DNA of 64,000 nt, taken from Apostichopus japonicus. Taxonomy: Eukaryota > Echinodermata > Holothuroidea > Aspidochirotida > Stichopodidae. Under the pieces are notes generated by a model. The model was not told the origin of the DNA and did no database searches. It saw only the letters and a program-made list of their open reading frames with translations. Position numbers and translations under genes: made by a program. Positions 281-39,900 of the stretch are shown in pieces. Every line of letters begins with the position of its first letter. The stretch's first letter is position 1. Location: positions 1,585,714 through 1,649,713 of the forward strand of contig NC_092567.1 of assembly GCF_037975245.1 (NCBI RefSeq), in the 5' to 3' direction.

Positions 281-302
281 GTTTGAATATATATATATAT
301 AT

Positions 303-338
303 ACTCTCTTAAATTCTTAGACTGAAATTTCAGTCTAA
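303..338. repeat. left terminal inverted repeat
   Basis: Thirty-six bases identical to the reverse complement of 16422-16457. It consists of a 14-bp outer block and a 22-bp perfect palindrome built on GACTGAAATTTCAGTC. A second copy of the palindrome follows immediately at about 340-359. Confidence 0.9.
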
Positions 339-620
339 TAGACTGAAATTTCAGTCTAAGAGCGGACGAACTGAGGGACCAGTTCCTTCAGACTGAAATT
401 CAGTCTAAGGAAGGACTGAAAATTTTCAGTCTGTAAAACGACTGATTTTTAGTCCAGCTAGACTGAATAATTTCAGTGTAACAGGACTGAAAGTTACTCT
501 TTCTTACACTGAAATTAAGCCAAATTAGATTAGAATCCAGCCTATAAGGTTTGAATAATTTTATTCAATTAGACTTTAAAGAAAAGTGGCTAGACTGAAT
601 ATCGTCATTTTATACTTTTA
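339..620. repeat. left subterminal ACTGAAAT repeat array
   Basis: Repeated direct and inverted copies of (A)GACTGAAAT / ATTTCAGTC(T), complete and degraded, for example around 390-410, 414-432, 448-477 and 484-515. By analogy with CACTA elements these are the likely binding sites for an element-encoded protein. Binding is inference. Confidence 0.7.
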
Positions 621-1372
621 ATTCAGGGATTAATAATCCAATAGGCAAGTCAAAAGACTACCCAAAAACACTAAATTGGGACGATTTCAGTTCATCATCT
701 TAGACTCCGCTCTCCAGGCAGATTAAAGGAATATTCCTGTAGAATTGTAAATATTCATATATGGAGTATAATTTTAGACACAAACTGGTTAAAAAGGCAG
801 GGTGATACCTCTTTTGGTTCAATAGTTACATATTTTTAACTTATATTTTGCTTTAACTATGAAAATAAGAAAACAAAACACCTGTTAAAAGTTTAAAAAC
901 TGTATTACAACTTTATTTATTTTCTTGGATACATTTAAGAAAATTTATAAACAAATAAAAAAAAAGTGCAAAAGGTAAGTTTGTTTGCTTGGGTTTTATT
1001 TATGATATCTTAGGTTATTAATAATTAGGTTACTAATAAGGGTTATTCAAATTTTAAGTCCAAACATTAAAGTTGCAATTCCGGTGCCGACCATTTGACA
1101 CGCAAACTCTTTAAATGTGGTCAAGTTTACCAGAAATGTATAATTTGACCATAACTTTTTTATTTAGTGTCCTAAAACTCTAAGGCTTGAAACATTCATT
1201 GTTATGTTTTAATTTAGATTCATTCTTTTAAGTGAAACCAATATGTAGCAGTTGTTGCAAATATAATAACAACCCGAACCAATTATGACAGGGCAAGTTC
1301 CCCAATTATACAGATATTGGTACAACGAAATTTAAAATATAAAACCCTAATTGTATTTAAAGAACAAATTAT

Positions 1373-1535
1373 GGCAAAGGCCACTTGGAAAGTGACCAAC
1401 AATGAACGGATGCTGGCATAGGCCACTTGGAAAGTGACCGGCAATAGATGAATACTGGCAAACGCCACTTGGAAAGTGACTGGCAATGGACAAATACTGG
1501 AAAAGGCCATTTGGCAAAGTGACTGACAATGAATG
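1373..1535. repeat. short minisatellite, about 4 copies
   Basis: Four imperfect copies of a 45-50-bp unit centred on GCCACTTGGAAAGTGAC, which is itself a near-palindrome. The small reading frames over it on the minus strand are periodic by-products of the repeat. Confidence 0.7.
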
Positions 1536-1654
1536 GATTACAATTGACAGCTTACATATTACAACCAACTTACGTACAGAGAATGCAATTTTCGAAATAA
1601 AAAGTTAAGTATAAAAACAACTGAAATATTTCTCATACATGTTATACTGTAAGG

Positions 1655-2048
1655 CAGGGTTGTCCAACCTTTTGCAGAGGAGGGCCACATGGAATGATTA
1701 TGAAGAAGGAGGGGGCCGCACAAACCCTACGCTCGATATTTTGCCCGAAGCCCAAGGCAGCAAACTGTGAGCACTGCGCGCGGATCGCACTGATTTATTT
1801 TCCTTCCTGATAAAACAGATGAATAAAGTCCAGCCCCCCCCCCCCTCCGTTGAGAGAGTGTCACACAAACTGACATGTATGCAGTTTTTTGGACCCAGAA
1901 GGTTCGAATGACTGATTAAATAGCTTCAAATTGTTATCAATAAATTTGCTCACTAAAATTTCGCATCGTAGAGCATCTCTGACGGGCCGGACGCAACCCT
2001 GCGGCGGGCCCGACTGTGGCCCGCGGGCCGTTATAAGGTTATACCCTG
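1655..2048. mobile_element. hAT-like MITE (394 bp)
   Basis: Begins CAGGGTTGTCCAACCTT and ends AAGGTTATACCCTG, giving imperfect inverted termini with the CAGGG start common in hAT elements. The flanking octamers CTGTAAGG and TTATAAGG match at six of eight positions, consistent with an old 8-bp target duplication. The interior is GC-rich with no coding capacity. It lies inside the large transposon, downstream of the SAM gene's last exon. Confidence 0.7.
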
Positions 2049-2447
2049 TTATAAGGTAAATGCATGCATCGCAAGAAGGTAAGAGTTGGAAAGACGTTGA
2101 AGCTTAATGTTGGTCCTTTCCACACCACCCTTCTTCCAAACTCCAACCTCTTGCCAACCCCCACATTTTTTAAACTCCCAACCTTTCCACCTACCCTTCA
2201 GGGTTTTCATTTCTGCTGCTTATTCCCAACCCCATCTCTTCCCAACCCACACCATTCTGACACCCATTTCTCGTAATTGAACCATTTTTGGAAACTGTCC
2301 GACTGGATTACAATTCAGAATTGTACCAAACTAAGTTATAATACTGATAGTACTGGTGCTTACATAAACAAAATAATTGTTTACATGACCCAAAATCAAA
2401 ATAAAATACAGCATACAAATAAACACTTGCAACACCACTCTAAAAAG

Positions 2448-5400
2448 CTACTTAGGAGAAATTAGTTTAATGTTAGATGCCAAGCTACGCAATGGTGCCT
2501 TTACTGACGTAGCAGGAATCACTCCATATAAAAAGGCAGCTAAAAATTCCCAAAATTGAAGAAGTGCCAAAGCATAATGCACATTAAAAGCATAATGTGC
2601 TTTAAATAACCTATCCACAGCCTGTATGAGATTGGTTCCTGCAGGAATTGGAATTCTATCCACCACAATGAAGAACTGCGACGGATTTAGGGCAGGACCG
2701 AGTGAAAGTATGTACGGTTGTACATACTTTTCATCTTTTCCGGCAGTAGTAGCATCAATACTCGTGCCAAGCTAGGAAGAAATGACAAAAAAAATATGTA
2801 TATTTCACTCCATACTATTAAATTCACATCTGAACATTAAGCAAACTGCCAATCAGATTTTTCCATGACACTTCCAGTTTATTCATACTAGAAGAAAATT
2901 TCACACATACTAAACTTCTTACATGATCTCCCTAGAATGTCACTAAAAATTCACAAACCCTGGACAGACAACTTTACAAAATTGGTTATAACAGCCCTGG
3001 ACAGACTGACAGAGTCTACCTTCAGTATCAATAACTGTATATCTCAAACACCTGAAGGGTTCATAAGTCAACCGTTTTCCATCTCTATCTTTGTTATTCC
3101 TTACTAATAATGGCATAAATAATATTGGTTGGCTTTACATTTAAAACCATTTACACCAGACAAACTTTTTCCATCTTGTTTAGCCCAGTAAATTTTGTAA
3201 AACCATAACTTTTCCATTAAATGCAGGGGTGTTTATATGGCTTTGAGCATTTATAAGGGAATATGCAGTATATTGTCATAAAATACTCACAGGTTTGTTC
3301 TGAAGGAAGTACAACAGTGCCCCTGCTCTGCTAGTGGACTGCTGCTTCTGTTTTAACATTGTCACTGACCTGTGCAGTATATATATCAATGTATATAAAG
3401 CACACATATCCTCTGAAAAGAAAATTGAGTTTGAAGTTTTAAACATAACCTCGAAGGCATAGTCTGTGGTTAATTAAATGCAATAAATCATAGTACAAGT
3501 TAATTTGAACAAATGGCACAATTCCATAAATAACCCTTTTAAATAAAATCCAGATAAGTTATACATCCAAATAAATATAAAATTCTGTATTACACAAACT
3601 ACAAAGTAATTGATATATTGATTTTTTAAAGTTATGGTTCATTGCATAATTTGCCCAAATTGAGAATAAGAATAAAATTGAGAACTTTACAGCCTCTTAC
3701 CAAGGGGAAATGCCCAAAACACTTTATATGTGATCACTATTTGATTGGTTAGCTAGAAAAAGGCATACAAAGAAAACTTTGAAATATGATAGCTATACTA
3801 ATTTAACTTACTACTATCAGTTTCCTCAAAAGCATCAATCATATTCGCAATAGCTGGTGAGGTTTTCTTTCCTACTTCTATGACGCGGTCTCTGTATCCA
3901 GCCCACTTTGTAATGAAGTTATCGCTGGATTCCGCAAACATTAATCGAAACTCCTCGTTAATCTGGAAGAAATGTAAACATTTAATTACTGCAAATCAGA
4001 ATGCTAGGAGATTTTTCTAGTATCACAATTATGAAACTTACCACATCAAATCTGAATATTGCTTCTCCAGTTATCTATTGATTGCAGTGGCGTAGGAAGG
4101 TACTTTTGAGTGGGGGGGGGGGGCTGAAGACTGATGGCCGACCTGGGGGAGGGGTCTAAGGGGAGGGGGCTCCCCCTCCCCTTTGGATTTTTTTAGCATT
4201 TCCAGGTGGCCTCAGATGCAATTTGGTGCAATATAGCACACTTCAACACCCACTCCATTTTTACAAAAATTTTGCATTTTCACCTGGCCTTAGATGCAAT
4301 TTGGTGCTCCAAATGAGATTTTTTTTCTCATTTGGAAATGAAAAAGGGGTATTCTGACTTGCGAAGCGGGGGGGCGGAATGATACTTCCGCCCCCCCCCC
4401 ATATTTTTCACTGGGGGGGCTGGCGCCCCCCAGCCCCCCGGTTCCTATGCCCTTGATTGATTGTATAGAAGATTATAATTATTAGAAATGCTTGATATAG
4501 CGCAATATACCAAAACCGGTCTCAATGAGCTTTACAATTAAAATTTAATACCAGTATAGTCAGGCGATACAGTCAGGAACCTGGGGGCGCACAACAACAA
4601 CCTTAACCAGGGGACGGACGAGAAAGATGGGGAAATGAATGAAAACTGCCTTTTCACACTTCTCTTCGCGAATAGTGTTCACTGAAAAAATAAACTAGTC
4701 AATATTGCCACGGACTAACGTTAAATTAGTCTTTAACGTTAGTCAATGCACCAGGACTAGCAAAAATCTTCGTTTCATCGCTGCTTCTTAGTTAGTTTAC
4801 ACTGACTAAGGAAAATATAATCGCAGCTTAGTCGGTGGCGACGGACTAAGGTATTTTAACCCATGGACTAAGAACGATACGGACACCCGATTTACGCCAT
4901 AATCGTAGCTTAGTCGGTGTCTACGGACTAATGTATTTTAACCCAATTCGATTCACTTCAATTTGGAAACCGTGAGGCAACGGCAGCTTGCTGGGCTTGG
5001 CATAGTTTCATACGATCACTCTAAGCAACTTTCAACCGTAAATCACCCAAGAAGGTCTTTAGAAGAATGGAGGTATTAACTGCATCATCGGTCTACCTGT
5101 TATTCCTTTATAACTAGAAGGTAAAATTAAAGTTAATTGTTAGGCCACTGGCACTAGTACTGTATTATGGTTAGTGTAACGCTACCGTTGTCACGTTGGC
5201 GTTTCGCAATACACAAGTGCAATGACAATGAGTAGCCTATAGGCTTCTACTGGGTACTGCAGTGCATTCTCAACACTAAAGTGTGCATTCTAAACACCAA
5301 TTAACAATGTGTTATGTGTGTATTGGGCTAGATTGAACAGTGGCACATAATCTTCTAATTTATTCCCAAACAAATGCTGGAACTATAAGGCTCAATAGTT

Positions 5401-8400
5401 TATTTGAAGTCTACACTCATTTGGTAAAGATTTCCTGTAATTTCCCATGTGAATCTAAATGGGTAGGCTTTGTGATATTGAATAAGCAAGGCTAGACCTT
5501 CAAACGTACAGTCACAGTCGGCTGAACACATGTTGCGACATTCCTTCACGGTCGACTTGCTTACTGTAAGAAGTATTAACCGTTTTTTTTTCTCAGGAAA
5601 GCTTGATAGTCTGAAGTTATTATAACATGTGCTTTTAGTATACTGCCAAAAGAGTAAGTTGCTGTATTTGTATTGATATTTTATGTAGAAGTAACGGAAA
5701 ATTTAGTACGTTTAGTTTGGTCTAATTGCACGTTTTTTTACTGTCCAATGTAGTGCAGGGTTCACTTGCGCGAATTCAAATTATTCTGTTTATGTGTATG
5801 TATATGCATCGATTCTTAGATTTCTTAGATAATTATGCCCATCAGTTGTATCTGAAGCCCTAACCAACATTTTCCAGTAGGTTTCAAGTGGTTACCTCAT
5901 GAGCTGACCTAGGTCAGCCTTGAGGGGTCAAATATAGATCACTGGCAGGGGTACCCCACCACCAATAATTACTGGCAATGGCCATTTGTTGCTCTTGGGG
6001 CCATACCTGACATATTGTACTTACTTTGATGTGTTACCATGACAACTGATCTAGGTTAGCTATCAGGTGACTTTAAAATTGCTCTCCCAGCCACACCCAC
6101 CACAGTCGGTTTGCCAGTCGTCTGGTTTCATATACAGGAATGCACTGTGAACATTGTGATGTACAAGGCAATTGGTTACCTTCCCAGCTAACCAAACCCT
6201 CTGGGATCCCGGTCTATTGGGATCATTATTATCATGATTAACATAATTATTAAGTTTTGAGAAATAACTTGGTGTTATGCTGTGCAAAGCTAATAATAAT
6301 TTGGTAAAGCTGCTATTCCTGGCTTATAATTTGAGGGACCTAGATTTAAATGTATACCTCCCAATATGTTATAAAATTTTAAGGTAAATGTATGTTTATG
6401 ATAATGTGAGTTATCATGTGCTATATCTGTATCTCTGCTTACACGTATATCATATTTTCTGTTCACAGGTCAATAATGGTGCAGATTTTGGCTTCCTGAA
6501 GACAAGTGGGAGGCCATTTGTAGTTAAGAGAAACACTCTTTGTTCGTGAAGACTTAACTGGTGTCGATTTGGGGTACCACTTTAAAAGGAAAGTCATGAG
6601 GAACCCTTGCCCAAGATCCAACTTTGCATTATTGTGCAGTGCTATACTTTTGCAATTCATGTTTGATCCATTAACTTGTCTTAACTTTGTTGGAAAAAAA
6701 CTCAGATTTTCAGATTTTATTTACAGTGATTTCTTCTCTATCTGTCGAAAGTCAGCCTTTTGTAGACATCAGAAGTTTTATCAGAAATAAATACTGCCAA
6801 CGTACACATTATTTGTGTTTCTTCTTCTCTCTTTTCTTTCAGTGATGCTAGTCAGTGAAACTAGTCGGGTTTAATTCTTTCAGTGAATCTAGTCGGTGCA
6901 ACTAGTCAGTCGATACGGACTAAGAAAGGTTAGTCGGGAGAGGCACCATCCTGACTAATGTAAAACCTGCTATAAACTAGTCGGTGGCTCATATAAATTA
7001 GTCGGTAAAGACCGACTAATGTCACCAACTAATGTAACTGACTAATATACATTTACCGCCTAAGAAATTGTTGATCGACTAAGCTGACGGACTAAGATGA
7101 CCGACTAAGAAATCCAACTGACTAAGGAATAAATTAGTCGGTATAGCAACTGACCAAGGCTATGTTAGTCGGGAGAGGCACCAGATGGACTAACGTTATG
7201 TTAGTCGGTGAACCAATTTAAGTTTTCAGTGTTCAGAGAACCAGACATGGGTGACTCCCATGCAGGCAGCCAGGTACATCATGTCATGTAACACTTGCTT
7301 TTCCTGTCAATTGTGAAAAATGGACAATGGTTCGTAGGGCTGGCATTTTTGACAAGACATCTAAAAACTGAAACTTACCAAATTAGGCATATCCTGAAAT
7401 CTGGGAAACTTCTGTAAAATTTCCGTAATTGTCTTACTGCCTGATTCCATCCACTGCCTTCTGTAGTGGTGAGTGTCCTTAAAGAAGTTGAGATGCTTAG
7501 ATGGATTCTCACTAGGAACTGAGTATTTCATCCAATTAACCTAAACAATCAAATATAATTATAAAATCAGGTTACAATTTGTTACACCAGTGGTTGCCCT
7601 ACTGCAACATCAATCACAGTTGGGCTTCACTACTACATCAATTATGAAGAGTCAATAGTACCACTGCCTCATCAACGGATCAATAAGAATTGCTCTCACT
7701 GCTCCATCAATCAGACTTGGTCTTACTGCTCCATCAAGCACAGTTGGTCTCATGGAAAACATTTAACAAGGGGGCTTTAATATAAACTCAGAACCTGCAT
7801 TATCATGAAAAATTTATAAATTTACTTCGTTCCCCACTTACCTGTCTCCCCACAACCTATGCACCGCATTCTACCGTGTCTAGAATGCCCTGGTAATCTT
7901 TTAACACTGTACACCCTCACTGGCCCTAATGGCCTCTCTTCATTTTTCTACCCACAAAGTGTCTCACTGTGTTTTTCGGAGTTAGAAAAATTTATAATTA
8001 TAATTTTTCATTTTGTCCATAAATATTGGCATTCTTTGGTGCTTATAATTTACTTTTCTCTAATTTACTCCAATTTTCCTAATTTCCTAAACTTACCTAT
8101 TGGCACCTTTCCATTCGGACTATCGTGGTGCCGTTAAACTTTGCCGTTAAACTCCGAACAAACAAACATAATTTAAAGGAATTTGAAATTTGTCTCAGTA
8201 ATGCCTCGAATTTTTCTTTGTTTCTGCCTTAATGTTAAGTGCTGCCAAACCAATAGATATACCAGTAACTTTATTCATACCAATTTTTTTAATACTGATA
8301 AACCTAAAACATCAAAAATTCTTTACATGATAAACAATTTGATAAAATATCTACCTTATCCATGATTTCATCCGTCTCTTCAGCAAGAGAATGACCAGGC

Positions 8401-11400
8401 CCATCTGGATTAGATGCAGATACAAGACCTTTTCGTTGCCGCATATGGTCAGCTTGCGGTTTAGTTGAGCGGATATTTTTGAGTCTATACTCGAGGAATC
8501 CCTGCCCATTGCTGTAATAATGCTCCTGTAACAAAATATATTTATATTCTAATATTAGGGATGCACCAGAACCAGATTTTTAAGTTCCGGTCGGAACCAG
8601 AACTAGCGGAACTGGAACTTTTTACATTTGTTAGTTAGAGTGAAATATGTATGACTGATTTAACTGTAAAATATTGAGAAACATGTCTAAAACAATATCA
8701 GTCATGTCACTATGTGCATTGAAACATGATTTTCAAACCATTTTTCAATATAATTATCCTTAAGTTAGTGCATACAGTACACTTGATTAGACACTTTCAC
8801 TATTGACAGCAAGTTTGTCTCGACTGCAAAGAAGGAACAAATCATACATCACTCTGCGGCCGTTGTCGTAGGCGTCAACAAAAGGTTAACCTTGACTTTA
8901 ACCTTGGGTTAGCAAATATGCTAAAAAATAAATAAACAAGCAGCTTGTTATTATTTATACCGATGATGTTGCTAAGGCCTACCCTTTCATTTAATATTGT
9001 CGATGAGTGGGGACGTTTTAAGAGGAATGACGTCGTCTTAAAAGAGAATAATGTTACATAATATTCACATTAGTTAACTGAAATATTGCTATTTTTAACC
9101 TATTTATTACTTTCTTGGTTTTGGTGGTTCCGGCCAGAACCACAAAAAATTCCAGCCAGAGCCAGAAATTTAAAAAATGGCGAGTTCTACTGCATCCTAA
9201 TTTTAAGAAGCTTGATAAGCACCTTTCGGCACACTGACAAATTCATGCAGGGTATTTACACTAGTAACTTTGGTAAAAGATTTATCAGCCAAAACAGTAC
9301 ATAACCATGGCTTTACAAAAATATGCTACGATGCATTTTTGTAATTGCAGTAAAATGAACACACACAGAAAGTATATAAACTTTAATATTGAAAGGCTGT
9401 TTATAAATATGCATAACTAGAATTAAGAATTTCCTATTATGGGGTTAGAACAAACTGGATTACGGTCAAATAAAATGTTTATAGTACTTACATGCCCTTT
9501 CATTCCTGGTGTTGTGTCTTGCAGGGTGGGGAATACCGTCACAATCTCCATGGCAAGAGTGGTTTTTTGGTTAGTTGTTGGATACCTTTAAATGTGAAAT
9601 ATATTATTGTTGTATTAAACATTTAGTGATGGGAAAACAAATAGACAAAGGTAGTTCAGATTTCGTGTTTACAAGCTCTATAGCCAAAATCACGTTAAGC
9701 CCGCCCACTATGCATTTGAATGAGATTCAACATTTTTACACCATATTTCAATCAGATTGGTTATGTTAAACCAGTTATGTTAAACCCCGTCCCTTCATTA
9801 ATATGCATGACATCATGACCAGTTATGTTAAACCCCGCCCCTTCATTAATATGCATGACATCATTACCAAAAAACAATAGGGCACATTTTCAAATGGCCT
9901 CTCTCTGTATAACAACACATGAACCAGATCTAGAGATATCGTGTTTACAAGCTAGGCATAACATACTTACACATGAGGGATAGGTTTCTGATGGTGATAG
10001 CATCTGAACCAAAAAACTAAACATTTAATATACACAAATGAGATCAACATAAAGCAATGGACTACAACAAAATACGTACAAACCACATTTCTCGACTAGA
10101 CAACCCACTGCTATGCGCACAAGAATGCGTCGTTGACGGGTGGAAAGAACCTTGTTAGTTTCCAAAACCTGTGCTACCTCTTTGCCCTCAGAATGCTTGG
10201 TGATGGTCTCTTTGAAACCAAAGTTCTGAAAAAATTATGGTAAACAATTAGAAACTACTGGATCATACACTACTCAGTGTTTCTCCACTTGCGGCACATG
10301 CACCACTTGTGGCACATTGAGGATCCCAAAGTGGCGCAATGAACTTTGTCAAGCAAACAAATAATCGCTTCAGAATAAGAAGGAAAAAATGAAGAATAGA
10401 AAGTAAACCAGTTAAGTACAAATTTAAGAGCTCAATACACGTAATCTGATCACGTGCCACGCGACCGGTGCGACTACAGGACCAAAATGTTTTCTAGATG
10501 GGTAATTGCATAAGTATATAGAAGAGGGGTGCAGGGTAAAGTGACTCAACTACTGTAGAGCTGAGAATTAGGCTATTTTTCTGGCAAAAGTTGCTGCAGT
10601 TACCTGCTAATAAAATAATACATATCTAGCAGTACTTACTGTTATAGTAGCAGAGCTGTAACTGGCATTAAACTCTGAACACCCTTTTGACATATCACTT
10701 CTCTGCTTACATGGGGTTGATGATGAATTTGGAGAAAAGTCTTCTGGGGTCACAAGTGTGTCACTGTCTGATGCAGTAGAGGAACTCTGTTAACAAAATT
10801 GCAATGTTTGGTAAATATAATTTAAAAACAAAATAATATAAATTAAAATACATGTATGCCACAATGTAGAACTATACAACTAAATAGAGGTGATCAAACA
10901 GAATGATGAGAATTGTGAATTATGCATTTTCTAAACAACATTTGTTTTAAGTACCATTACAGTTTTAGTCTTGAACATACACAAATGAACTTACCAAAGA
11001 CGATTCAGTGTTATCATCAATACATAGTTGCCTGATGAGAATGTGCAGCTTTCTTCGCACCCCAAAGGAAGTTACTCCCACTTCACGTAGGTCTGCTTCG
11101 ACCATGGTCTTCAACACTTCTATGTCAACATCATTATCTAATAAAGTAAGAAAAAAATACTGAAATAAGGTAAAGAGAGGATAAAAGGAAGAGCTTAAAT
11201 TAGATTTTCAAGACCACAATTAAAAAGAATGCATAATATGGGGAGAGGGAAATTTCCTGAGAAGATGTTATTTATAGAATCACGAAAATGTAAAGCATTC
11301 TCTGTAGTCTGCATAAAGAGGACAGATAAGGAAATAATTGACCGACAACATGGAGCTACTGCACGTGCACACATATGAGGGTACCAAGAAGTACACCTTA

Positions 11401-14400
11401 CACGCTCTGACACTATTAAACATTTACTAAACTGTGTACATGGAATAAAAGAATCAAATCCTCTACCTGGCCAAATATCAATTACATTGTTTCCCATTTT
11501 TCAGAACTATTAAACCTTGATTCCCAACATTTTGTTATAAATGAATATACAAATAGACATTATTAATGTTTTTAAGTTTTAAGTTTGTTGAACAATTTAG
11601 AAAATGATAGTTCAGGTACTGTTGTTAGCGGACAATATCCAGTTCCGCGAAAAATTATTACTTTTATTTTACTTGAAGTGTGTACACGTTTAGTGAATTT
11701 ACTGTACTCACAGCTCTATTATACAGTACTGTGGGCATTATCTTACCTACAATGATTGAAGGTGTATCTGGGACACAAATATGATGGCGAAGTGTCTTCA
11801 TATGAAGTCAACTTCGTTAACGGATGAAAGTCTACAAGGTTCTTCAACGTCACAACAGAATATTCTGGATCAAGTGTTTTAATTTCATATGCATGAAAGT
11901 GTGAGGAAAAACCATGTGTACAGCACTTAGCAACAACAAAGAATACTGAATTGTGGGTAGGCTCCTGCACCAAGATATGGCTAATGCAACTGAATTGTGG
12001 GATTTCTTGTATCAGTCCTGTTGCTAGAAACAAGTTTGGTTTGTACTGGGTTCCGTACAGTGTCACTTGGCTTGCAACAAAAATCTCTTCATCTTCAGCC
12101 AGTTGCAAGGTTTCTGCAATTACACCACTGCCGTTTAATAATCCTATGGGAGTCATATTTCCACCCAAACATTCAAAGTCATGTCTGAGGCCATTTCCCG
12201 ACCATGCTGCACACTGCATAATTTGATGTTTATATGCAATCGATTTGCATATATTTTTAAAATTGCAGTTGATTGAGGCTACTTTTTTGCTAAAAGCATG
12301 TTTCATTTCGTATTTGAGACACTGTAGCGATGTCAAAGGCCCAGAAACTCTAATACATGTTGGATAATGGACCATATGATGGTGCTTATTGATCATATTT
12401 TGATCAGGAAATTTGAGCTTGAACTGACAGTGATGATCGTGAATAAGGTGCTTTAAGTAAACAGTCTGCTCGTTATACACTGACGGAGCAAAAATGACAT
12501 CCATACACCGTAGCAATAACAAAAGAAGCTCATAATGTTCGTTGTCATGTGGAATTTTATCACCAATTAGAAGAGGTAGCATCCTTGTGAAGCACCACAT
12601 CTGAACAGCTTTTTGACCTAATTTATGGTCAGAGAGATTTCTCAGTCGCTCAGGCAAAACTATGGATGGTTTATTTTTCCGGTCGTTAAATGAATAATGA
12701 AAGGAACTTAACCGCTGATTGAACTCGTGAACAGTTAAAAATCTGTTGATGCAAATGAACTGTCGAAGCAATAACTTGACTTCATACGGGCAAACACCTT
12801 CTAACATGTCGTGCATTATGTCAAAGTTAAAGTTAGTGGAACTATGAAAATTACGCAAAGAATCTAATGGGCAAGCTCGTTTGACACCAGTTGTGTTATC
12901 ACCATTTCTTGTTTGAGATGCTATTTCTACATCACTATCATGGGAATCCATTGTTCTTTGCTGAAAATCATCTTCATTAAAATGATGTTGAATACCTTCA
13001 CGAGTTGCATAGCACAACCTACACAGTTTATTTGCAGAAGGAGACAAAAACCCAAGAATATCATGTGCTGCCAGTGTGTCTGCACATAGAGAAACTAAAC
13101 TGCCATGAATAGTACGCATCCTATCACCGATTAAAAGCTGAACACCATCATCACTTTTAAAAGAATTCATTTCCTTAACAAATGGCCTCAAGATTGGTTC
13201 AAAACCATATCGTTTAACGTCTGTGCTATAAGCTGCTGCAAGTAAATAAATACTGTTCATTGTGCAATTCATACGTTTTGGTAAATTTTGAATTGAATAA
13301 TAGAACATTCCAAGTTTATGGACACCAGCTTTACTACCTATTGGATTGGTCACTTCTACGTCATCATAGAATATTTGGAAGCGAAGAGCATTCGGGTAAT
13401 CTCTAAATAATCCATGCTGTTTATATTGTGAGCCATCTTGATAGCCCCTCAATAAACCATTGATAGAGTGCTCTTCATTTTCAATGAGATTCATTACTGG
13501 TCTTTTGAGAATTAACTTTAGAACTTCAGTGACAGGTATGTACTGGAAAGTATCTGTTACTATTTGCTGCCTTACATCACCAGTTTTTCGATCGATAACT
13601 TGATCAAAACGTGTTCCCAATGCGTATTGAGCTGGCTCCACCAACATTAAATGTTCAATCATATAATTTGATTGTTGCTTAATTGTTTCTATCTCAGTGA
13701 ATGGATTTTGACATGAGGTGAATTTGGTGAAAAGATCAACCACATCAGCAGCATTGGTATCAATTCCATGGTTTTCCATAACCTTACACACATCACGTTT
13801 CAAGGACGAAATTGCATATTGAACATATCATTGGTTCCACTTATTACATTTTGTATTGATGTATATGGCAAGGAGGTTGAAGCTCTCAATTTGATAATCA
13901 TAGAAACAGCAAGTTGTTTCAGTGAATTGGGATCATATACAGGTTCTTGTTCAGCAACATCTGGTTCCAGTATATCAACATCCATATCATAATTTTCTTG
14001 ACCCTCTTCATACTGCATATCATTTTGATCTACAAGAAGCTCATCATTCAAAACGTGTTGTTCATGATCTTCAGCATGAGGTGCATGTGTCATTCTAATG
14101 TGTCGCAAAAAAGAATTCATTAAGGTAAATGTCTTCAAACAGCCATCTTGGCCACATATAAGGATTTGCCCAGAGCCTCCAACTGGATGCAATGCATGCA
14201 AATGATATGCCAGCTCTCTAGTACCCCCCAAAATATGTTCTTGGCATAAAACACAAGTATATCCCATTCTCGCAGTTGCAGTGAACTTCTTTTACAGTAA
14301 TTTAGTTAAGTGTTAATAGTCACTAAACACTACGCTGAAAGATACTGAAGTATTTGCTATTAAAATCCGAAGAATTCATGTATTTTCTGTACTTGAATGT

Positions 14401-16104
14401 TATTTGCTGTGTTGTGCATTCCTTAGAATTGTGATGCCATGGTGTGTTCTGAAAAGAGAGTGTAACATAAATAAAAGAATTCTCATATTCTTGCATTTTG
14501 TTTAGCAATCTGTATTGTTAGCATTGCTAGTGTGATAATCACCTATAATAAAGTCTTGATTACTGTACATTAAATTTCTGCAAGTACAGAACTGGATAAA
14601 TATGAATATAACATTACTGTATGCACTGCACAGTACCATCTAGCAAAGAGTATGTGCCAACTTCAATGTTGACTAGACTATGTTTTGAAATTTTGTACGC
14701 ACATGTACAGTATATCAAAGAGAAAAACAGGAACATAAAAATTTACAGTACAATACTGTAGAATTATAATATGTATGCACCTAGAGATAGCGTAATTTGG
14801 TAGTTGAAATTCTATTACTTTCTTACTGTTAGTTCATAAAATATACATCTATTTAAGATGGGTATGGAAATGTGTTATTATTTTTGTTTGCTACTAATTT
14901 GATGTGTTAGGCATTTATTTGAAACATATTCAAAGAAAAAGTTTTTTCCAGTACTTTTCTTTTAAATCACAATAAAAGAAGTGAAAAATCTAGTATTTCT
15001 CCTTTAACTCTTATGTTAAGTGACCTAACCAAGTGACCAAGTAGAAACCGTACTGAGCCCTATAGCACCAGTGCCTAACGGCCTGGTAAATAGCCACTAC
15101 CTTTTCACTTAGGCTAAGTAAACTTGTATGCAGCCAGCAGGGTAGGAATAAATTTTCTTTAAAAAAAATCATTTATTTAGGCTTAACGTTAGGGGCCTAA
15201 TATTAGGCTAAGCCTATTTTCGTTTTAACCAGCACCCATTAATTTAAAAAAAAAATTTTTGTTTAACCTAAAGTTGGCACTCTCTGACTAGGCTAGCCTA
15301 ACTTAGTAAAATTTAGTAAAATTTTACTAGGACTACACTACTCGTAACCAGTGCCACAATAGACGTAGTATGGTCACTTCGAAGTTCGGACACCTAAGCC
15401 TTGAAACACCCCAAAACTAAATCTTCTCGTATAAATCACATGAAAATATACTGGACATGGTGGGAGAAATATGTTATAGTAAGATACACGGCCTAACTTT
15501 CTTTCCTGCAAACTGTTTTTACTTTGTATTCCAAGAAGATTCTTCGTTATTGTGGAACTGGTATTTCTTTGCTAGAGTATTGTGAAGTTCGGACACCCAA
15601 CCTACAGTGTTGCGCTGGTGATAAAATTGGTGGCGCAGTTGCTCTTTCAGTAATTATAACAGACTTCATAGATCTCCGTCATTTTATTGACAAATATGTA
15701 AGTACTTTCTTGCACACGGGTCATTTTGGAGAGAAAATAACTGTAGCTTTATAGTGTTTGGTGAAATTTGGCTCTTCCTGTAGGATTTCATGGTGAAATC
15801 GTGTATTTCTTAGGGTGTCCGAACTTGGCAATACTGACTATACATGTACGACAGTCTGACAGTAGTGTAGCCTAGGCCCCAAACTTGGCCATAGTATTTC
15901 TATACTAGGCTATAGCCTACTGTACTACAACTGTACTAGGCATAGCCTAGTATAATATTTGTTAATAGACACTCTCTCTATGACTGAGTATAACTATGAG
16001 TATGAATCGATTAAAAACTGCTTTTTAATATTACCTTCGAGCAATGATATAACTTCTTCCGCAAATCCTTTACTTGCCAAACACGTTCTCAATGTTTCTG
16101 CCAT
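2448..16104 (-). CDS. SAM-domain accessory protein of the transposon (509 aa, 10 coding exons)
   Basis: Hand-joined exons, 5' to 3' on the minus strand: 16104-16035, 11137-10995, 10786-10640, 10225-10080, 9585-9492, 8525-8355, 7540-7379, 3962-3812, 3412-3291, 2771-2448. All introns are GT-AG, all phases agree, and the total is 1530 nt with one terminal stop. Residues 1-70 form a SAM domain: the start MAETLRTCLASKGFAEEV is followed in exon 2 by ADLREVGVTSFGVRRKLHIL. Residues 72-120 are a Ser/Thr-rich linker. The remainder carries blocks I recall from SAMD3-like proteins, including GLYPTT, FPTLQDTTPGMKGHEHYY, GFLEYRLKNI, ILQKFPRF and QPYILSLGPALNPSQFF. Function is not established. Intron 1 contains the transposase, so by position it parallels maize TnpA, which binds element ends. 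The start ATG lies 318 bp inside the right inverted repeat. Confidence 0.85.
4085..4455. mobile_element. hAT-like MITE (371 bp) with perfect 8-bp target duplication
   Basis: Flanked by ATTGATTG at 4077-4084 and 4456-4463. Ends are CAGTGGCGTAGGAAGG and GGTTCCTATGCCCTTG, about 12 of 16 bases inverted. The interior is G- and C-run-rich, with no ORF. It is inserted in the large transposon, in the intron between exons 7540-7379 and 3962-3812 of the SAM gene. Confidence 0.85.
4680..7231. mobile_element. nested non-autonomous CACTA-like element (2552 bp)
   Basis: Ends are CACTGAAAA... and ...TTTTCAGTG, flanked by TT on both sides (4678-4679, 7232-7233). The outer about 250 bp on the left and 390 bp on the right are packed with direct and inverted copies of TTAGTCGG / GACTAA. 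This subterminal array differs in sequence from that of the host element. No transposase is present. The interior holds a possible two-exon plus-strand transcript with little coding capacity. It lies in an intron of the SAM gene. Confidence 0.8.
6468..6790 (+). other. possible terminal exon inside the nested element
   Basis: A pyrimidine-rich acceptor (TTTCTGTTCACAG) precedes VNNGADFGFLKTSGRPFVVK and a stop, and AATAAA lies at about 6785. A possible donor near 5119 (AGAAG|GTAAAA) could mark an upstream exon with an ATG at about 5087, but no long joined frame results. It may be a captured gene fragment or chance. Confidence 0.25.
8557..9198. mobile_element. probable MITE with AGGGATGCA termini
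   Basis: Starts AGGGATGCACCAG and ends CTGCATCCT, short imperfect inverted termini. Both ends hold related blocks, GGAACCAGAAC near the left and GGCCAGAACCAC near the right. No clear target duplication was found. It lies in the intron between exons 9585-9492 and 8525-8355 of the SAM gene. Confidence 0.4.
9770..9870. repeat. tandem duplication, about 49-bp unit
   Basis: Two nearly identical copies of a unit containing CCAGTTATGTTAAACCCCG followed by TTCATTAATATGCATGACA, intronic in the SAM gene. Confidence 0.75.
10995..11137 (-). CDS. SAM-domain gene, exon 2 (core of the SAM domain)
   Basis: Acceptor TTTATTAG before 11137 and donor GTAAGTT after 10995. The exon completes a split codon from exon 1 (GAA G + AT) and encodes DVDIEVLKTMVEADLREVGV onward. 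It has the L-x-x-L-G-V-x-x-x-G-x-R-x-K-L pattern of SAM helices 3-5. It is also the first downstream acceptor available to the transposase transcript. Confidence 0.85.
11743..13803 (-). CDS. CACTA/EnSpm-like transposase core (ORF2, about 686 codons)
   Basis: Long uninterrupted frame with the block order of CACTA transposases. FYDDVEVTNPIGS lies near residues 145-157 and holds the first acidic pair (D147, D148). LCADTLAAHDILGF lies near 239-252 with D242, followed by the CRLC Cys pair at 261-264. NFNFDIMHDMLEGV lies near 324-337 (D328, D332, E335) and corresponds to the D-x-MH block of TNP2-type proteins. I infer a DDE catalytic core; the exact catalytic triad needs alignment. The first codon of the frame is TTG, not ATG, so this is not an independent start. 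It is the continuation of the zinc-finger ORF, displaced by one frame at about 13800. The frame ends at AGG TAA, where the GTAAGA of a consensus splice donor overlaps the stop. It lies inside intron 1 of the SAM gene. Confidence 0.85.
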   Translation of the reverse strand: MKRDVCKVMENHGIDTNAADVVDLFTKFTSCQNPFTEIETIKQQSNYMIEHLMLVEPAQYALGTRFDQVIDRKTGDVRQQIVTDTFQYIPVTEVLKLILKRPVMNLIENEEHSINGLLRGYQDGSQYKQHGLFRDYPNALRFQIFYDDVEVTNPIGSKAGVHKLGMFYYSIQNLPKRMNCTMNSIYLLAAAYSTDVKRYGFEPILRPFVKEMNSFKSDDGVQLLIGDRMRTIHGSLVSLCADTLAAHDILGFLSPSANKLCRLCYATREGIQHHFNEDDFQQRTMDSHDSDVEIASQTRNGDNTTGVKRACPLDSLRNFHSSTNFNFDIMHDMLEGVCPYEVKLLLRQFICINRFLTVHEFNQRLSSFHYSFNDRKNKPSIVLPERLRNLSDHKLGQKAVQMWCFTRMLPLLIGDKIPHDNEHYELLLLLLRCMDVIFAPSVYNEQTVYLKHLIHDHHCQFKLKFPDQNMINKHHHMVHYPTCIRVSGPLTSLQCLKYEMKHAFSKKVASINCNFKNICKSIAYKHQIMQCAAWSGNGLRHDFECLGGNMTPIGLLNGSGVIAETLQLAEDEEIFVASQVTLYGTQYKPNLFLATGLIQEIPQFSCISHILVQEPTHNSVFFVVAKCCTHGFSSHFHAYEIKTLDPEYSVVTLKNLVDFHPLTKLTSYEDTSPSYLCPRYTFNHCR
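13800..14267 (-). CDS. transposase N-terminal zinc-finger part (ORF1, 155 codons)
   Basis: Starts at an ATG (MGYTCVLCQEH). There are two C2H2-type fingers: C5-x2-C8 with H22/H24 and H27, then C38-x4-C43-x12-H56-x4-H61. An acidic linker (about residues 66-115) follows, then a helix (LKQLAVSMIIKLRAST). This order, fingers then acidic linker then core, matches animal CACTA-like transposases. It stops at TGA just where ORF2 opens in the -1 frame. No slippery heptamer is visible. A GT-AG intron of 65 nt could bridge the two (donor at AAT|GTAATAAG, acceptor at GTAAG|GTTATG), but it would remove codons that look like genuine family sequence. A 1-nt deletion in this copy is the simpler reading. Confidence 0.75.
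   Translation of the reverse strand: MGYTCVLCQEHILGGTRELAYHLHALHPVGGSGQILICGQDGCLKTFTLMNSFLRHIRMTHAPHAEDHEQHVLNDELLVDQNDMQYEEGQENYDMDVDILEPDVAEQEPVYDPNSLKQLAVSMIIKLRASTSLPYTSIQNVISGTNDMFNMQFRP
16035..16104 (-). CDS. SAM-domain gene, exon 1
   Basis: ATG at 16104-16102, 23 codons plus one base, then donor CTCGAAG|GTAATA. It encodes the first SAM helices and is separated from exon 2 by a 4.9-kb intron containing the whole transposase. The promoter is expected between here and the right terminal repeat. Confidence 0.8.
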
Positions 16105-16239
16105 TATATTCTCGTGGAAACTTAAAAGCGGCTAGTTTTTAAGAAGCGTATATTCCCTCGGTTGTTCGTCTAAGATGGACTTTCGATTCAACGTACGCGG
16201 GCAAATGTAGATTAGGAACACGTCATTGATTTGGACAGA

Positions 16240-16421
16240 CCGGATTGGTTAAACCGTTCAGTCTTTGCATGGACTGAAATAAAATTGAGCACGTGACAAA
16301 ATACAATGATGTTATTGGGTATTGCATTCAGTCTATTGCAGGCTGAATTTCGTTCGGAACCAATTCCAGTCTTAACGTCTGGAAATCGGTCTTATGGACT
16401 GAAATAAATTTCAGTCAAACC
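16240..16421. repeat. right subterminal ACTGAAAT repeat array
   Basis: Several direct and inverted copies of GACTGAAAT, TTCAGTC and relatives between the SAM gene start and the right terminal repeat. The array therefore overlaps the expected promoter of both element genes, so a protein binding it could affect both transposition and transcription. That effect is inference. Confidence 0.7.
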
Positions 16422-16455
16422 TTAGACTGAAATTTCAGTCTAAGAATTTAAGAGA

Positions 16456-16457
<2 letters not shown>
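16422..16457. repeat. right terminal inverted repeat
   Basis: Perfect reverse complement of 303-338, ending GAATTTAAGAGAGT and followed directly by (TA)n to about 16486. Confidence 0.9.
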
Positions 16458-16486
<29 letters not shown>

Positions 16487-16490
<4 letters not shown>

Positions 16491-36900: not shown

Positions 36901-39900
36901 TAATTTCCCCTCCCCAGTTTTGTCCCTCAAAATAATGATATTTACTTTAATAAAATGAGTAATTCTGATTTACTAGCAAAACTAGATCAAATTTGGACTT
37001 ATCGTTTCATATTTTCACCCAATTTTTCTGGAATAGAATCCACCTCCCCCTCCCCCTCCACCTACCCCTCCCCTCCCCCTACCCCACCCCTCCTCCTCCC
37101 TCCGAAAATTATACTGCAGATTTCTGTCCTTTCGTATGGTGGTCTTTGTTGTTCGCTTTATGTTTAGTACCTTATAATGCAATGTAAGCAACGAGTGATT
37201 TCAGAAGGACCGGTGTTTGCACAATCCTAACGGGATCAAGACTTCCGAGTATGAGAGGAAGAAGTAGATTAAAAGAACGAATTAAACTACTAACCTGTGC
37301 TAACTGAAATCCGAAAAGTGGAGAATTTTTCAATTCCGTCGACTTCAAGGTACGAACGTACAATTAAATCGTGTGACTTAGCCTTCAATGGTCCTTTTGA
37401 AGATGTCAAGTTCATCTCGTTTCCATTAACTGGAAAGTATTCCGTATAGTTTTTTATTGATCCGTTATGCAATTTCAGCAAGTATGCCGCGTAGTAAGTC
37501 CACTGACCAATGGTAGCAAACCAACTAAATGTCAAATCGTTTTTAGAATGAAATACTTCAATACACGTCACAGCAGATGGCGCTAAGAAACAGAATTATG
37601 AGAAAAAAATATTAGGAAGTTTATCTTCGTTAAGATGAAGGTAGATATTTGTAACAAATGTATACAGCAAGTTAACTGGATCTTTGTACGTCATAACAGA
37701 ATATGTGCATTAGACATTCCACATGGAAGAAATTCATGCAAATATTACCAATAACTAACACACTGTTAACTCCATGGTGTTCTGTTCTCAATAAGTACTT
37801 GTGTAGGCCTATGTGACTGTGAGATTAGGATGGGAAAATGGACACCCGAAAATAATGGTGCAATTAAGTGCTTACCCTTTGGTCATACACTACATTTGTT
37901 AGTCGCTCACATAGTCCTTGTTTCTATTTTTTAACAATTTAACAAAGGCCCTGTTTCCCTCCCTCACCCCCCCCCCACCCCTCCACCACCCCAACTAACC
38001 CGATTATCGTAAATCTAGAATATGAGCACACTTCATTATACCGATAGGTATAATGAAGTACTGTGCTAACTCCTGTTTTTAGTATGCTGACATCAGAATG
38101 GTTGCTATAAATACCTGTGAAGTCGATGAATGACGTTGGTAAACCTCTTACGTCACCATTAACTGTGGATATGTTAAACATGTATATGGTGCCTATGCAT
38201 AGACCTGATATTTCACCGTTGGTAGTATTTCTGTCGATGGAGATTTCTTCCACCCTTCCCAAGTCATCCACGGCAGTTAAAATGTAACTTTCAATATAAC
38301 CATTGGATGGCTGAATCCACGTGACGCTGATGTTACCTGACGTCACTTGATGTTGCACAGACGAGAGCTCTATATGTGGCGGGGCTGAAAGTAATGGAAA
38401 ATTATCAAACTTTTCGTTGACTTATTGGGTCCAGGTGACTCTGGTGTCATCTTATGTTACTTCCTACTTCTATATCGGTAATTAAGAGGACTGTGGCTAG
38501 AAAAAATATCATAATAGTTAAATACATGATTGTAGTAAGAAATAAAACAAATTAAAACTTTAACAATTTTCCCGACTGAACTAGATAGGGGTCTGAAAAT
38601 TTATTGGAGAACCAGAGGCAAATGACGGATTTTATAAAAGAGTGTGATACCTTCCAGGGTTAATTGAAGCTGATTGCCAAGTAGGAGGTCTAGGAATCCT
38701 CCTTCGAAAAAAAAACCCATTAAGACGTCAAATGTTGCATTCTGGAGCATAATTTACTATAAATTAGATCTCTATAAGTAGCCCAAAACGAAAGGATTTG
38801 CTTAAAATTTACTTTGTTTGCGATTGAAAAAATGGCAAGGGGGAGGACACACCCGCAGTAGTTGTCCAATTTTTGCATGGCAAAAATCCTCCGACTGAAT
38901 CAATTTCCACGACGGACGATTGGAGGTTGGGTCACCACCTCCCGCCCCCCCCCCCCCTTGCGCACTCAACTGAAAAACAGTTTGGTGCGTTTCTCTGACA
39001 TTTGGAAGTTACTCTCTCAAGACAGTAAACTGTATACTTGATGGAACCTACTTTCATAAATGACGTCTGCTTCACATACAAAGGAGAATGCTGATAAGCA
39101 AGACACCTTCACGATCTGCCAAGGAGTCAAAGAGCCTGGATGTAGAGCATAACAGTCTTCATCACATGGAGGATGGAGATCGATGAGGTAAGTTTCGTTT
39201 CCTGAAAGTCTTAAGATATAAACAATAATGTTTACGGGGAAATTCGTTACGGCACAATGGAAAACTAGAACCAAGCATCCAAATTCCCACTCCACCTACC
39301 ACGTCCTGATTTACATCCTATGCCCCCCCCCCCCATTCAACCTACCGCCCTACCAACTGAACTATCCAGCTCTAAGTTGGTAGCGGTCCCTGTATAGCAA
39401 TTACTGTACCCTCTATGAGTCCCTTATTAAACCTACCGCCCTACCAACTGAACTATCATCCAGCTTTTAGTTGATAGTGGTCCCTGTACTTTACTGATGC
39501 AAGTTTCCCTTCAATGGATATTTAGATGGCTGGAAGTGATGACTTGTGTGATATGACTTTTTTCTTCAAATTTTGTGTTTTATTGTGAATGCATCTGGTT
39601 ACAGCAGGGTTAGTGATGACATCACCGCAGTTGAACTGCACATGTCTTTTATCATGATTGTTAATATTACTATAATTATTATTATTCTGTATGATGTTTA
39701 GTGAATTTAACCATAGAGAAAACTAATGTTTCTACTTAAAAAATACATTTTAAATGAAATTATAGATACAAAGTACAATGACAGCTACGGAAACATTCCA
39801 CATGTATTAAATTATAAGGAAAATTCAACAAAAAGGATTATAAAATGATAGCACAGCTTTTGAAGAGCAGGTGTCGTGATGACGTCACCTAACACCAATT

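Follow-up and report, generated by a model that had tools for sequence, protein, structure and literature searches.

A textbook case of a transposase gene nested within a second element gene is the plant element En/Spm. In the maize element, ORF1 and ORF2 (tnpD) lie in the first intron of tnpA, and the subterminal regions carry repeated motifs. According to the available part of a report on animal elements, En/Spm is one transcription unit resolved by alternative splicing, and the TnpD message carries the TNPD and TNPA ORFs in tandem (PMC1636069). The same text describes SmTRC1 from Schistosoma (DeMarco et al. 2006), which likewise yields several proteins by alternative splicing and has a transcript with two tandem ORFs, and gives 2-bp direct repeats at the ends of animal TRC elements (PMC1636069). 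Plant CACTA elements are described, in the available part of PMC4158355, as combining a DDE transposase with an accessory ORF2, a 3-bp target duplication and CACTA ends.

Here, we describe a complete DNA transposon of 16,153 bp in a window of 64,000 nucleotides of the Apostichopus japonicus genome, the whole stretch of DNA that was analysed. Two genes belong to the element, for a zinc-finger transposase and a partner with a sterile alpha motif (SAM) domain; they share a strand and lie between the same ends. Like En/Spm, it has two element proteins, a same-strand transposase in intron 1 of the second gene (families A to C), repeated subterminal motifs, and a defective copy that lacks the transposase. 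Unlike En/Spm, it is flanked by a target duplication of 2 bp (TA) where En/Spm has 3 bp, its ends read CTCTCT (CACTC or CACTG in sister families), exon 1 is coding, the second protein contains a SAM domain, and the position of the transposase varies among families. Since the layout is not attributable to chance and the exact position is not universal, the En/Spm-like gene arrangement is best regarded as a real structural analogy.

Among animals, SmTRC1 is a comparable element. The element resembles SmTRC1 and the TRC elements, as far as the available text describes them, in being an animal CACTA relative with a 2-bp target duplication, but SmTRC1 is about 4.7 kb long and has CCC ends, and its second protein is described there as having no similarity to other elements, with no mention of a SAM domain (PMC1636069). 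The preliminary description of this locus knew of no animal case, which is not quite right in view of the alternative splicing and two-ORF transcript reported for SmTRC1; the idea of a shared unit is therefore not new for animals (PMC1636069). With the plant CACTA elements of PMC4158355, as presented in the text available, the locus shares the combination of a transposase and an accessory protein in one two-gene element, but it has TA and CTCTCT where those have a 3-bp duplication and CACTA ends. As neither CACTA ends nor a 3-bp duplication is found in the window element, we class it among the CACTA-like elements broadly defined, outside En/Spm proper though with a presumed En/Spm-like mode of working; its 2-bp target duplication (TA) agrees with the animal TRC and wider CMC definition. 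In the open PMC literature, Repbase reports and subscription papers being outside the scope, the terms sterile alpha motif, DNA transposon and transposase never occur together, and EnSpm, SAM domain and transposon coincide only in a paper on zebrafish Asz1, by its title on another subject. No SAM-domain partner, cross-family conservation or shifting transposase position was found in that literature; within this scope, the conservation of a SAM-domain partner, the nested arrangement and the variable position are new.

Element ends and gene structure

The window lies on contig C7 of a scanned genome of 671.6 Mb in 35 contigs. By far the longest inverted pair spanning the interval is a perfect match between 303–338 and 16422–16457, from which perfect 36-bp ends had been deduced. 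TA flanks both ends in all eight elements with two ends (A1, the window copy, A2, B1, B2, C1, D, E and F), and copy A2 (contig C22) interrupts a tandem repeat, the intact units of which read GCGGTACCG with a single TA. TA is therefore the target-site duplication, and as the first base of the 36-bp match belongs to it, the element extends from 304 to 16456 with terminal repeats of 35 bp (Table 1); the perfect inverted repeat and the completeness of the element hold, and the outermost base is reassigned. The window family starts with CTCTCTTAAA, D and F with CACTC, and E with CACTG. The window copy sits in an (AT)n tract (287–303 and 16458–16487); the other copies with flanks read mostly do not, and all are at TA.

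Table 1 Coordinates of the element, its two genes and associated sequence features in the window
Feature	Position	Strand	Basis or remark
TA target-site duplication, left	302..303		inside (AT)n tract
Left terminal inverted repeat, 35 bp, CTCTCTTAAATTCTTAGACTGAAATTTCAGTCTAA	304..338	+	perfect inverted match to 16422-16456
Subterminal repeats built on GACTGAAA / TTTCAGTC	320..492, also 16272-16440		motif positions
SAM gene exon 10 with stop; conserved C-terminal region	2448..2771	-	homologous exon in B, C, D, E, F; R weak
SAM gene exon 9	3291..3412	-	gene model, splice-aware alignment
SAM gene exon 8	3812..3962	-	gene model, splice-aware alignment
SAM gene exon 7	7379..7540	-	gene model, splice-aware alignment
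SAM gene exon 6	8355..8525	-	gene model, splice-aware alignment
SAM gene exon 5	9492..9585	-	gene model, splice-aware alignment
SAM gene exon 4	10080..10225	-	gene model, splice-aware alignment
SAM gene exon 3	10640..10786	-	gene model, splice-aware alignment
SAM gene exon 2, most of SAM domain	10995..11137	-	PF00536 E 8.4e-5 on ORF around exon
SAM gene intron 1, holds whole transposase	11138..16034	-	gene model, splice-aware alignment
AATAAA, possible poly(A) signal	11663..11668	-	77 nt after transposase core ORF end
Transposase core ORF, 694 aa open	11746..13827	-	ORF list; among 64 genome places listed, including itself
Zinc-finger N-terminal part of transposase, ATG 14267	13803..14291	-	frameshifted from core in window copy
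AG of predicted 3' splice site; first exon base 14448, 181 nt 5' of transposase ATG	14449..14450	-	scores 9.9, 8.7
SAM gene exon 1, 70 nt, ATG, phase-1 donor	16035..16104	-	same exon in B, C
Putative promoter/leader: CCAAT boxes, CACGTG (16290-16295), CpG observed/expected 1.34	16105..16421	-	alike in B, C
Right terminal inverted repeat, 35 bp	16422..16456	-	perfect inverted match to left end
TA target-site duplication, right	16457..16458		TA flanks both ends

The SAM gene is on the minus strand and comprises ten exons, nine GT-AG introns and 509 open codons (509 aa). A purpose-written splice-aware aligner, with the window's SAM protein as query, returns the same ten exons in the window copy and in A2, stop codon aside, ten blocks in C1, and eleven in B1, including one doubtful 21-nt piece; the translations in B2 and C2 contain one stop each. 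Gene model and alignment bear out the earlier claim of a ten-exon SAM-domain gene between the element ends, with the transposase on the same strand in intron 1. An eleventh exon of 33 nt was dropped, as it breaks the frame. The match of the exon 2 frame to SAM_1 (PF00536) is modest, and that of the whole protein (E 3.9e-4, 21.2 bits) is below the Pfam cut-off of 23. SAM_1 and SAM_2 are the only Pfam matches at E ≤ 5. The SAM domains of ANKS3 (best, from residue 18, E 6.2e-6), BICC1 and Caskin-1 (query residues 8–62, E 0.006) are matched in the PDB, and the matches to ANKS3 and Caskin-1 cross the join of exons 1 and 2. A structure prediction for the last exon was discarded (mean pLDDT 45.5), and a search of viral contigs for the SAM protein gave four pattern matches, none of them confirmed.

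Both transposase ORFs of the window copy lie wholly inside SAM intron 1. The separation into a zinc-finger ORF and a core ORF, given in the preliminary description, is a frameshift of the window copy: the transposase is a single 841-aa frame in A2, and one copy in each of families B to R has an uninterrupted frame of 824–867 aa, which rules out a transposase made of two ORFs. The N-terminus contains C2H2-like fingers, and D153, D248, CxxC 267–270 and DxxHDxLEG 334–342 are invariant in the alignment (nine rows, five of them partial). Transposase_21 (tnp2) is matched at E ≤ 1 by two of nine aligned members (best 3.1e-4), with no match at that threshold for the window's own core ORF, and DUF4218, the plant companion of Transposase_21, by two of nine (best E 0.11). 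The protein is a putative DDE-type transposase, whose catalytic D-D-E triad may lie among the invariant residues. A PDB profile search returned only C2H2 fingers below E 0.05 (FokI at about 0.7), a structure prediction of the core was discarded (mean pLDDT 31.3), and no relatives of the core were found in viral contigs.

The SAM gene and the transposase across families

The scan gave 377 candidate places for transposase relatives, 64 of which were scored. A listed SAM C-terminal match lies on the same strand within 20 kb at 23 of these 64 loci and on the opposite strand at none, against an expectation of 0.16. Among the matches listed, a SAM match accompanies 8/8 transposase loci of at least 61% identity and 15/24 at 35–38%; the 41 of 64 loci without one comprise all 31 at 30–34%, nine of 24 at 35–38%, and one short match at 42%. 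The SAM queries may be too divergent to reach the loci at 30–34% and the short match at 42%, and the listed matches omit at least one true pair, that of family G on contig C10, recovered by profile. Conversely, 61 of 84 SAM places have no transposase nearby among the matches listed. Many fish loci are annotated as SAMD3-like, and the element offers a candidate function and origin for multicopy animal SAM-domain genes, which are possibly transposon genes.

Twelve regions were read (A1–A3, B1, B2, C1, C2, D, E, F, G and R). Both ends were found in the eight named above; A3 and C2 have one end each, and G and R a candidate left end only. The earlier description would have been refuted by copies in which the SAM gene is never between the inverted repeats; instead, both genes lie between the same ends in 8/8 two-ended elements. 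In two further families, B and C, whose transposases are 67% and 61% identical to the window's, the 70-nt exon 1 is followed by the transposase and the remaining exons within matching ends, which shows that the layout is not due to chance. With the family A exon 1 peptide as sole query, B scores 65 and C scores 70, against shuffle maxima of 21 and 23 (200 shuffles each). A1, A2, A3, B1, B2 and C1 have exon 1 on the 5' side of the transposase; it was not detectable in C2, and D, E, F, G and R gave no match above shuffles. Between A and B, the SAM gene shows pS 0.80, pN 0.33 and 51% amino-acid identity, and the transposase pS 0.73, pN 0.21 and 65%; pN/pS ratios are left unquoted because synonymous sites are near saturation. 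The substitution pattern indicates that both proteins are constrained by selection over the same A–B divergence.

Although the layout is conserved, the transposase has no fixed place within it: it lies in intron 1, after exon 2, or behind the SAM gene. It is in SAM intron 1, on the same strand as in En/Spm, in A1–A3, B1, B2 and C1, so that the nesting claimed for the window copy holds in families A, B and C; it is not general, as E, F and G differ. In F and G, SAM exon 2 is on the 5' side of the transposase and the later exons on the 3' side. Against the A–C profile, exon 2 of F scores 28.4 (maximum of four nulls 19.8) and that of G 20.7 (maximum 20.1); as the latter is barely above the null, the call in G rests on its match to F (54.0, shuffle maxima 27.6 and 24.6, 40 shuffles each way). 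The first log-odds profile, built from three sequences, was too strict for distant families, and averaged BLOSUM scores were used instead. Pfam SAM_1 matches the F exon at E 0.013, under the cut-off, and Pfam gives no match for the G exon. D and R yielded just the later portion of the SAM gene, on the 3' side of the transposase; the match in R is weak (40.7, maximum of 20 shuffles 25.6). Candidate exon 2 matches in D, E and R scored 21.9, 16.5 and 18.6 (maxima of five shuffles 19.5, 18.9 and 16.8) and were rejected, given also that those in D and R lie where the transposase frame is.

In family E, the SAM gene lies 5' of the transposase, and the SAM stop and transposase start overlap as ATGA (L023 7776–7781 on contig C12, with copies L034 and L037; contigs C12, C5 and C7). 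Over the compared pieces, the two further copies with ATGA share 98.2% and 99.8% identity with E; all three belong to one family and therefore count as one observation; a fourth E copy, on contig C17, is degenerate. The first 123 residues of the E SAM gene were not found, and its aligned translation has one internal stop. The overlap is a possible animal instance of termination-reinitiation between two transposon genes. A transposase tree of eight sequences groups A, B and C, and F with G, with full support, and E, D and R are not firmly placed; the layouts thus follow clades.

Transcription of the two genes and alternative explanations

We lean, with modest confidence, towards a cut-and-paste, CACTA-like (CMC) animal transposon in which the SAM gene and the transposase form one unit resolved by alternative splicing and the SAM protein is the analogue of TNPA. 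Both genes would be transcribed as one unit, driven by the CpG-rich leader that separates SAM exon 1 from the terminal repeat. In one splice choice, the transposase would be skipped and the SAM protein made; in the other, a 3' splice site just 5' of the transposase ATG would be used to give the scarcer transposase, translated as a downstream cistron, and in family E by termination-reinitiation at ATGA. The SAM protein, self-associating via its SAM domain, would occupy the subterminal GACTGAAA motifs as putative binding sites, and its presence at these repeats would set excision and dosage. A conserved animal counterpart of En/Spm, with several families in one genome, makes it testable whether regulator and transposase are kept in one unit for dosage control.

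Shared transcription of the two genes, on which the earlier claim of the same logic as in En/Spm depends, is inferred from several sequence features, and that claim is supported only in part. The approximately 350 nt before exon 1 in families A to C have a CpG observed/expected ratio of 1.13–1.34, two or three CCAAT boxes and one CACGTG, and the 500 nt before the transposase are CpG-poor in the same families (0.33–0.49). A predicted 3' splice site scoring at least 8 lies within 250 nt 5' of the transposase ATG in six of eight families, against a background of 0.83 per kb, with window and score cut chosen after a first look at the data. In F, this site is SAM exon 2's own; the nearest in E is at −311, and R has none. 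Scores come from two matrices built from SAM-gene acceptors; the first put the F exon 2 acceptor just under a cut of 6, and a smoother matrix followed.

The foremost alternative, that of two genes with two promoters, in which the transposase has its own promoter and 5' exon in intron 1 and nesting is compact packing, is possible, and we regard it as somewhat doubtful. It would relieve a difficulty of a shared message, on which the SAM ATG of exon 1 precedes the transposase ATG: splicing of exon 1 onto the transposase would put ahead of it an upstream ORF of 30–33 codons that begins at the SAM start codon, so that simple sharing of exon 1 is not straightforward. The intron 5' of the transposase in A to C is also long (1.8–5.1 kb), with 1, 5 and 16 CCAAT boxes in A, B and C, respectively, and 0, 2 and 1 in its last 500 nt, and the whole of it is not CpG-poor in B (0.95). 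However, the low CpG of the 500 nt directly 5' of the transposase in A to C argues against a second promoter there. Furthermore, in F the transposase ATG follows the GTATGT donor of SAM exon 2, identified by eye, after only 52 nt, and in E the last SAM exon ends in a stop that overlaps the start codon of the transposase. An AATAAA 3' of the transposase makes an independent end of its message possible in A; none is found within 700 nt after the transposase in C, D, F and R.

That the SAM gene is host cargo with no part in transposition appears unlikely. SAM domains are frequent in animal proteins, as the host SAM proteins in the PDB search illustrate, and a defective copy without transposase retains SAM pieces, both of which would suit a passenger; but the SAM gene is present on the same strand in families A to G, with transposases down to 34–37% identical to the window's, and it is constrained over the same divergence in A to C, a spread that recent capture would not give. 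A transposon inserted in intron 1 of a host SAM gene, of which a transposase within an intron is the usual sign and which would make the nesting accidental, is scarcely credible and is ruled out by the position of the element ends, as the inverted repeats enclose the entire SAM gene, the two genes also occur together in copies on other contigs, and exact inverted pairs of more than 13 nt whose arms are at least 1 kb apart are absent from intron 1, which thus shows no sign of a separate nested element.

The one-unit reading can be widened, tentatively and with less confidence than for the window element itself, to an old animal CACTA-like clade in which the SAM protein is an obligate second transposition protein. 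The two genes would always form one transcription unit, within which the transposase would have moved (to intron 1, to intron 2, or to a place 3' of the gene with an ATGA overlap) under the same dosage control through splicing or reinitiation, and the likeness to En/Spm would be convergence on gene logic, not on protein.

Copies of family A and further features of the window

Identity to A1 is 99.3% for A2 over 15.6 kb and 99.2–99.3% for A3 over two pieces, which suggests recent movement and recent activity of the family A element. With copies 99.3% identical, one of them with an uninterrupted 841-aa transposase, an experimental system is plausible. The defective copy L035 (699–6389 in C12:11065000–11071999) has both terminal repeats, 5.7 kb apart; it lacks the transposase and SAM exons 2–7, the remainder of its SAM gene is damaged, and it is judged from its structure to be an internal-deletion derivative. 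It is one of 16 SAM places that are 73–77% identical over the last exon, and these details were read from L035 alone.

A second, nested element was noted in SAM intron 7 (4680–7231). Its ends read CACTGAAAA and are flanked on either side by TT, as judged by eye; TTAGTCGG repeats lie close to them, and no ORF is longer than 100 aa. Its end motifs are present in A1, A2 and A3, so that it probably predates the spread of the A copies. Three imperfect tandem repeats with 42-nt spacing (1367–1517) lie between the left end and SAM exon 10. Outside the element, an open frame of 160 aa on the minus strand (37939–38421) looks like a fibronectin type III domain.
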